DNA of 64,000 bases from assembly GCA_017459705.1 (NCBI GenBank), contig JAFUCJ010000003.1:62001-126000 (forward strand), read 5' to 3'. The stretch's first letter is position 1. Each line of letters starts with the position of its first letter. Made by a program: the position numbers and the translations under genes. Shown in pieces: positions 6,247-52,208 of the stretch. The DNA comes from Candidatus Saccharimonadota bacterium (GTDB lineage: Bacteria; Patescibacteriota; Saccharimonadia; Saccharimonadales; Saccharimonadaceae). The notes under the pieces were generated by a model, which was given only the letters and a program-made list of their open reading frames with translations, was not told where the DNA came from and ran no database searches.

Positions 6247-9397
<3,151 letters not shown>

Positions 9398-51104: not shown

Positions 51105-52208
51105 ATGATCATTCGTGAGAATATACCCCTGTCAGAACTTACTACTATGCGGCTCGGCGGCCCTGCTCGCTTTGTCATCGATATCGAATCTCGCGACGAC
51201 ATCATTCCTGCCTTTGATTTTGCACGCAACCACAGCCTGCCTTATTATATTCTCGGCGGCGGTGCCAACACCATCGCGCGCGACGCCGGCTTCGATGGCG
51301 TCATCGTGAGAAACTGTATGCGCGGCATCACGGAATCTTCCGAAGCAAGCAACACGGTAGATTCATTATCCGGGCGGGTGACGAGTGCGGAGGGGGACCC
51401 CCGCGAGCTTCAGCGAGTGGGGGAGGATAGCACTCGGCAGGACCCGCCCTACATGTTGAATGCTCTTGGCGGCACCGATTGGGACGCCGTTGTCGCCTAC
51501 GCCTGCGAACGGAATCTCACTGGCATCGAAGCCCTCGCCAAGATTCCTGGCCTCGCCGGTGCCGCCCCCGTTCAAAATATCGGCGCCTACGGCCAGGACA
51601 TTTCCGACACTTTCAAATCCGCCGAAGTCTATGACATCGCAACTGGCGATTTCAAAACCCTCAACGCCTCCGATTTTCATTTTTCTTATCGCCATAGCAT
51701 TTTGAACACCACCGACCGCGGCCGCTATTTTGTCATTTCCATCACCCTCGCCCTCGCACATGGCACGATGCCTCGCCCTTTTTATAATTCCATTGAACGC
51801 TACCTGGAATCCCACCCCACCGACGACTTTTCTCCCGCTTCCATTCGCGACATTGTTTCCACTATCCGCCAGGACAAGCTCCCCGACCCAGCCGACAAGG
51901 CCTCAGCAGGCTCTTTCTTCAAAAATATCTATCTCTCAAAGTCCGACGCCGCAGCCGCCGAAGCCAAAGGCTACCCAGTCTATCATGGCCACGACGGCCT
52001 CAAAATCAATTCCGCTTGGCTTATCGAACAATGCGGTCTCAAAGGCAAACTCCTCCATGGCATACGCGTTTCCAGTACGGCTCCTCTCGTTCTCATCAAT
52101 GAGTCTGCGACCGGTTATGCCGATCTCGCCGCCGCTCGCGCCGAGATTATCGCCGCCGTCCAAGACAAATTCGGCTACCAATTAGAACAGGAGCCAAACG
52201 AACTATGA
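51105..52208 (+). CDS. murB: UDP-N-acetylenolpyruvoylglucosamine reductase MurB
   Basis: 367 residues. An FAD-binding PCMH fold: 'TTMRLGGPARF', 'YYILGGGANTIARDAGFDGVIV', 'GIEALAKIPGLAGAAPVQNIGAYGQDI' split, 'SYRHSILN', 'PADKASAGSFFKN' with the catalytic Ser, and the C-terminal Glu in the MurB closing segment. It makes UDP-MurNAc for peptidoglycan. A ~26-codon palindromic element (51372-51449) is inserted in frame between 'VRNCMRGITE' and 'MLNALGGTDWDAVV', adding residues such as 'RVTSAEGDPRELQRVGEDST'. TATAAT 8 bases upstream of the ATG; leaderless. The stop overlaps folD (ATGA). Confidence 0.95.
   Translation: MIIRENIPLSELTTMRLGGPARFVIDIESRDDIIPAFDFARNHSLPYYILGGGANTIARDAGFDGVIVRNCMRGITESSEASNTVDSLSGRVTSAEGDPRELQRVGEDSTRQDPPYMLNALGGTDWDAVVAYACERNLTGIEALAKIPGLAGAAPVQNIGAYGQDISDTFKSAEVYDIATGDFKTLNASDFHFSYRHSILNTTDRGRYFVISITLALAHGTMPRPFYNSIERYLESHPTDDFSPASIRDIVSTIRQDKLPDPADKASAGSFFKNIYLSKSDAAAAEAKGYPVYHGHDGLKINSAWLIEQCGLKGKLLHGIRVSSTAPLVLINESATGYADLAAARAEIIAAVQDKFGYQLEQEPNEL
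51372..51449. repeat. In-frame palindromic element inside murB
   Basis: GGGCGGGT (51372-51379) pairs with ACCCGCCC (51442-51449); CGAGTGC (51382-51388) with GCACTCG (51430-51436); CCCCC (51398-51402) with GGGGG (51419-51423). Total 78 bases, 26 codons, and the frame stays open. Confidence 0.75.

Follow-up and report, generated by a model that had tools for sequence, protein, structure and literature searches.

The murB gene of this Saccharimonadota bacterium carries a long palindrome within its open reading frame. This raises the question of whether the segment belongs to the enzyme, acts as an RNA, or entered the gene as a mobile element.

A nested hairpin inside murB

The palindrome lies at positions 51372-51449 of the window, by which is meant the whole stretch of 64,000 nucleotides analysed here. 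Sequence inspection and folding resolve its 78 bp into a nested three-tier hairpin that is in frame with murB, at exactly the place and with the CGAGTGC/GCACTCG and CCCCC/GGGGG steps that an earlier note on this DNA had reported. From the outside in, the stems are GGGCGGGT/ACCCGCCC, CGAGTGC/GCACTCG and CCCCCGC/GTGGGGG, and they are parted by two junctions, GA/GCAGG and GGAGGGGGA/AGGATA. The parts are as follows.

51105-52208, + strand: murB, the host gene (367 aa)
51365-51460, + strand: probable full repeat unit, the 96 bp in common with the ileS copy
51372-51379, + strand: outer arm, 5' side (GGGCGGGT); GGGT is the same in every copy retrieved, whereas GGGC varies, with covariation
51380-51381, + strand: unpaired GA within the GGGTGACG junction
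51382-51388, + strand: middle arm, 5' side (CGAGTGC)
51398-51404, + strand: inner arm, 5' side (CCCCCGC)
51405-51416, + strand: apical part (GAGCTTCAGCGA)
51417-51423, + strand: inner arm, 3' side (GTGGGGG)
51430-51436, + strand: middle arm, 3' side (GCACTCG)
51437-51441, + strand: unpaired GCAGG within the CGGCAGGACCC junction
51442-51449, + strand: outer arm, 3' side (ACCCGCCC)

The region 51360-51460 has a folding energy of -48.9 kcal/mol as compared with a mean of -36.4 kcal/mol for shuffled sequences (z = -3.6), and none of 200 dinucleotide shuffles reaches the native value. The host reading frame contains no stop across the hairpin and its product is matched by Pfam MurB_C. Read by hand as a kink-turn, the GA/GCAGG junction did not fit.

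Homology between the murB hairpin and a copy in ileS extends over 51365-51460 with 87% identity (query 26-121 of positions 51340-51480), and the MurB proteins of the same genus that have no insert are mostly 331-346 aa long. The in-frame addition to MurB stands as first described. From this longer homology and these shorter proteins, however, its size, put at 26 codons, is probably an underestimate.

In an alignment of 30 MurB sequences, 28 have nothing in the loop that receives the insert, in agreement with the earlier claim that the segment is mostly missing elsewhere. In one relative (G004) the same loop holds a different palindrome, and in another Saccharibacterium (L087) it holds a copy of the same family that was entered in another frame; distant MurB proteins bearing the same residues without palindromy at the DNA level were not encountered in this comparison. 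In the structure of a relative (PDB 7orz) the insert site is a short turn, where the alignment breaks between query residues 84 and 117, the counterparts of chain residues 83 and 85. An AlphaFold model, made for this one protein, predicts a confident MurB fold in which residues 82-111 form a disordered loop (pLDDT < 50) between two strands. The insert is thus placed in a loop at the surface that the fold can accommodate, as in Rickettsia palindromic elements (RPE).

Dispersed copies in the genome

The genome of ten contigs (728,099 b, about 728 kb) was scanned whole, and BLAST and a descriptor additionally recovered variant copies. A search with the murB segment finds five further places, and the whole-genome scan yields about 17 copies of what is here called family 1, in two subtypes and mostly inside housekeeping genes. 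Besides murB, the hosts encode a penicillin-binding protein, TopA (two identical copies 960 bp apart), a TsaE-containing protein, a FemAB-family protein, IleS (two copies, one of them degenerate), Obg, a pseudouridine synthase, XseA, MnmA and a PrmC-like methyltransferase. The names Obg (as ObgE), MnmA and PrmC are assigned in part from sequence motifs. The copies occupy several reading frames, in both orientations, of unrelated host proteins, and at least three (C1, C4, C5) lie between genes. Those near predicted N termini (PAD, xseA, mnmA, prmC) may be untranslated. In the FemAB gene (C9:46005-46070) and the pseudouridine synthase gene (C10:213837-213868, - strand) the full element is followed by extra 3' halves that resemble GGCAGGACCCGTCGAG.

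A native MurB loop whose DNA is palindromic by chance would explain why the segment sits in frame within an essential enzyme. This reading has next to no probability, since the dispersed copies refute it: the same DNA recurs in other frames and strands of unrelated genes, and in MurB itself the segment is missing from most relatives and predicted to be disordered.

The earlier note had paired the murB element with a palindrome in ligA and had argued that two such insertions make a one-off accident unlikely. The search for further copies bears out the recurrence, with copies in about ten other genes in which the frame is kept; the picture of a murB element standing alone beside ligA has to be given up, as sequences related to it are numerous in the genome. 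The two palindromes were also said to differ in sequence and to have only their architecture in common, which is right as far as tested, ligA being absent among the matches of the family-1 scan. The ligA palindrome occupies approximately positions 7762-7850 of the window (- strand) in the ligA reading frame (6247-8355), its complementary arms reach well past those limits, and it has no sequence match to family 1 or family 2 in the scans made.

Family 2 is a second family of nested palindromes in this genome, with the core GAGCCCCGTAACGACGGGCGCGAGCGAG and likewise in frame. Within one copy the outer arms, 15-20 bp long, are complementary; between copies they are unrelated. The copies are the following.

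C9:41963, 42599 and 43859: ValRS, three copies
C9:65829: ileS
C8:2174: FtsJ-like gene
C10:30245, - strand: Dus
C7:151113: end of Pta

The possibility that such arms are an inverted target duplication was considered at ValRS site 1 and rejected, as neither arm looks native there; nowhere else in the genome are the arms found again. There is also a third palindromic repeat, about 91 nt long and with TTACAAC...GTTGTAA ends, which lies outside long open frames (C9:72191, C6:27290, C2:65303, C10:191293, C1:8140), and palindromes with similar ends are found within open frames at C7:155239 and C2:1042. A further hairpin with perfect or near-perfect arms of 25 bp (C7:156446-156517) is located inside an open frame of 387 aa.

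Covarying arms and invariant junctions

Family 1 has a core of 64-79 nt with three nested stems, laid out as an outer arm GGGT, GA, the middle arm, an inner hairpin, the returning middle arm, GCAGG and the ACCC outer arm. In an anchored alignment of 73 distinct Saccharibacteria copies, from which the arm counts are taken, 93.4% of the cells are paired as compared with 71.9% after shuffling and 32-44% for slid structures. Double changes in the outer and middle arms number 263 as opposed to 85 in shuffles. The letters of GGGTGACG and CGGCAGGACCC were set by the search pattern, and their conservation was therefore checked separately with the BLAST and descriptor variants and with the looser pattern GTGACG...CGGCAGGAC. 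The element has no match in Rfam at gathering score.

Reading frame and translation

Where both flanks of a copy match one protein of the genome, 33 copies are in frame and open and none is clearly disruptive; the copy L069 also lies in an open frame, and five remaining flank-matched cases are ambiguous and look like antisense open frames over intergenic gaps. The palindromic repeat is thus carried in frame by unrelated protein genes, as RPE are. A core length of 1 mod 3 is found for 27 of 35 copies inside genes as compared with 14 of 42 others (Fisher p = 2e-4), and relative to the host gene 21 intragenic copies are sense and 14 antisense.

These data bear on a reading in which the insert never reaches the protein, either because a small splicing-like element leaves the mRNA or because the ribosome skips it by programmed bypass, so that MurB stays normal. 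In favour of this reading, the segment folds as a strong RNA hairpin, and the covarying arms and invariant junctions give it the look of a functional RNA. Its removal would, however, leave length and frame free, as in introns, inteins and bypass elements, whereas gene-spanning copies are in frame and open and the bias in core length is seen only inside genes. Moreover, an RNA element works in one orientation, but the insertions occur in both, and no Rfam family corresponds to it. Removal or bypass is therefore very unlikely. Instead, the kept frame and the core-length bias, together with the disordered loop of the AlphaFold model, support the view that the insert would be translated and tolerated, which would offer selfish DNA a route for adding protein sequence to essential enzymes.

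Distribution in relatives and other phyla

The strict pattern GGGTGACGN{30,60}CGGCAGGACCC is present in 11 of 40 relatives, with no matches for the reversed control, and a slightly looser pattern is present in 2 of 96 genomes from across the phylum, this genome being counted among the two. In a collection of 257 Gb the strict pattern is expected, by our own estimate, to give some tens of matches by chance, and matches that lack a hairpin were dropped. Ten matches in viral contigs include none with a nested hairpin and are regarded as chance; those in Streptomyces and other Actinobacteria are mostly without a hairpin and consistent with chance. The looser GTGACG...CGGCAGGAC pattern matches 24 times in an Uhrbacteria genome (reversed control 0), 37 times in a Deltaproteobacterium (control 0), 56 times, some overlapping, in another proteobacterium (control 2) and ten times in a Gottesmanbacterium (control 0). 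The arrangement GTGACG-hairpin-CGGCAGGAC is seen in genomes G040-G047 from Uhrbacteria, Deltaproteobacteria, a proteobacterium, Omnitrophota, Gottesmanbacteria and Elusimicrobia, at up to tens per genome. Neither Rfam nor the papers searched contain such a family, and a search of open-access literature turned up no paper describing comparable elements in CPR bacteria.

This genome is empty at sites where sister species hold copies. The gene at C10:43077-44501, empty here (G000), has family-1 copies in G004 and G009 (L048, L054) at nearly the same site in opposite orientations. The ileS site holds a family-2 element here and a family-1 element in G006, and ValRS has several different inserts at two sites at which other species are empty. 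Since the same sites in MurB, IleS and ValRS carry different palindromes in different species, either the sites are permissive hot spots or old insertions there have turned over. The earlier note had also proposed a look for target duplications at the insertion points; none is visible at the sites inspected, where the empty sites are too diverged to give exact ends.

These swaps are what would be expected if the insertions were old: the element would have entered in an ancestor and hardly moved of late, and its copies would since have drifted apart or been replaced on the spot through gene conversion or template switching. RPE-4, RPE-6 and RPE-7 of R. japonica show the same pattern, for which the authors leave both readings open (PMC3767692), and template switching in quasipalindromes is a known mutation mechanism (PMC7202029). 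Against great age, most species of the same genus are empty at the MurB site, the family-1 copies of two species in MurB are in different frames, and the identical topA copies point to recent spread. Ancient entry is accordingly rather unlikely, although it deserves some weight.

Replication-strand bias

In this genome 16 of 17 family-1 copies and all seven family-2 copies lie on the C-rich, presumed lagging strand as judged by eye from the GC skew of the contigs: on contigs of negative skew the copies are on the + strand, and on the large contig of positive skew they are on the - strand. Among relatives, with skew taken over 20 kb, the rule holds in 24 of 30 cases (p = 0.0014); it holds in 10 of 10 in Uhrbacteria (p = 0.002) and 4 of 6 in Gottesmanbacteria, again from GC skew, and these p-values are optimistic because copies within one gene or contig are non-independent. 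The excess of sense over antisense copies does not allow gene orientation to explain the bias. With GC skew as the stand-in for a mapped origin, the orientation of the element follows the replication strand rather than the gene.

This also weighs on the idea of a structured RNA element that is selected for a role of its own, such as mRNA stability, regulation or protein binding, and has come to lie in coding regions by chance. Invariant junctions, covarying stems and the existence of intergenic copies would suit such an element, but an orientation that tracks the replication strand, the use of both orientations relative to genes, the patchy presence among relatives and in the phylum sample, and the lack of a neighbour gene in common make it very unlikely.

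A probable mobile element without an evident enzyme

Y1_Tnp is absent from this genome and from 23 genomes of the same genus. Among 25 Y1_Tnp loci in other genomes, one has a copy inside its 3.2 kb and none is flanked by copies. No mobility gene is common to the regions within 3 kb of the copies, the neighbours being only housekeeping genes in conserved order, and no parent insertion sequence of the family-1 element was seen.

The family-1 element is dispersed, patchy among sister species and in frame within genes, and its arms change together. The murB segment is probably a copy of this element, non-autonomous, palindromic and mobile, which would insert at replication forks via single-stranded DNA and add to the protein a loop that is tolerated. 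That the element moves, in the strict sense, is inferred here from divergent species rather than from a near-identical pair of strains of which one has the murB copy. In the mechanism envisaged, the element would insert as hairpin-forming single-stranded DNA exposed at replication forks, and a putative trans-acting enzyme would recognise the invariant GTGACG/CGGCAGGAC junctions and move it. The copies to survive would be those that leave the frame intact and fall in a flexible loop at the protein surface, and their translation would give disordered loops; template switching within the hairpin may contribute to keeping the arms complementary. More tentatively, the GTGACG-hairpin-CGGCAGGAC arrangement could define a superfamily of single-stranded-DNA mobile hairpins in several phyla, moved at forks by a host or other enzyme and repeatedly adding flexible loops to essential proteins of Patescibacteria. 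The motif common to several phyla and the replication-strand bias make the movement of palindromes without a transposase directly testable.

Comparison with known palindromic elements

The element resembles MITEs in being short, gene-less, dispersed, non-autonomous and built of inverted repeats (PMC10969869), but its outer arms vary from copy to copy, no parent insertion sequence was seen, and no target duplication is visible at the sites inspected, whose empty counterparts are too diverged to give exact ends. With REP/RAYT systems and elements of the IS200/IS605 type it shares hairpins with conserved unpaired letters (PMC3116915, PMC6006769); IS608 and ISDra2 target the lagging-strand template (PMC6006769), a preference compatible with the strand bias described above. 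In contrast to these systems, no Y1_Tnp occurs in the genus sample and no GTAG tag was seen, and a REP with RAYT was rejected as no genomic Y1 transposase flanked by the repeats was found.

The CGTC-tagged REPs, which include RPE-4, RPE-6 and the Neisseria dRS3, are likewise palindromic, spread over several phyla, in part intragenic and devoid of a dedicated transposase, and in both cases GACG (CGTC on the other strand) adjoins the stem (PMC3733652). The absence of a dedicated transposase beside the copies here agrees with this, as negative evidence. CGTC-tagged REPs have single stems of 8-9 bp, loops of 4-5 nt and a short CCA-like tail and are mostly dimers (PMC3733652), whereas the present element has a longer core, three nested stems and another 3' junction; lacking the single stem, loop and CCA-like tail, it falls outside the definition of a CGTC REP given there.

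The closest likeness is to the RPE, described by Ogata et al. as cited in PMC3767692 and PMC10969869. Both are short palindromic repeats of several families that interrupt many housekeeping genes of a reduced genome without breaking the frame (PMC3767692, PMC10969869). In both, sister species can have different families at one site or close to it, and no transposase is known. They differ in that the present element occurs in Saccharibacteria and further phyla, forms a three-tier hairpin with GGGTGACG/CGGCAGGACCC junctions and has a measured replication-strand bias. RPE-4, RPE-6 and RPE-7 contain ATGAC and the present element a TGAC-containing motif, which is a lead only, the comparison being one of behaviour. 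By analogy, the element works like an RPE, while its architecture differs and its sequence probably does too. In-frame palindromic insertions have so far been described mainly for Rickettsia, and the same behaviour is now seen in the very small genomes of Saccharibacteria.
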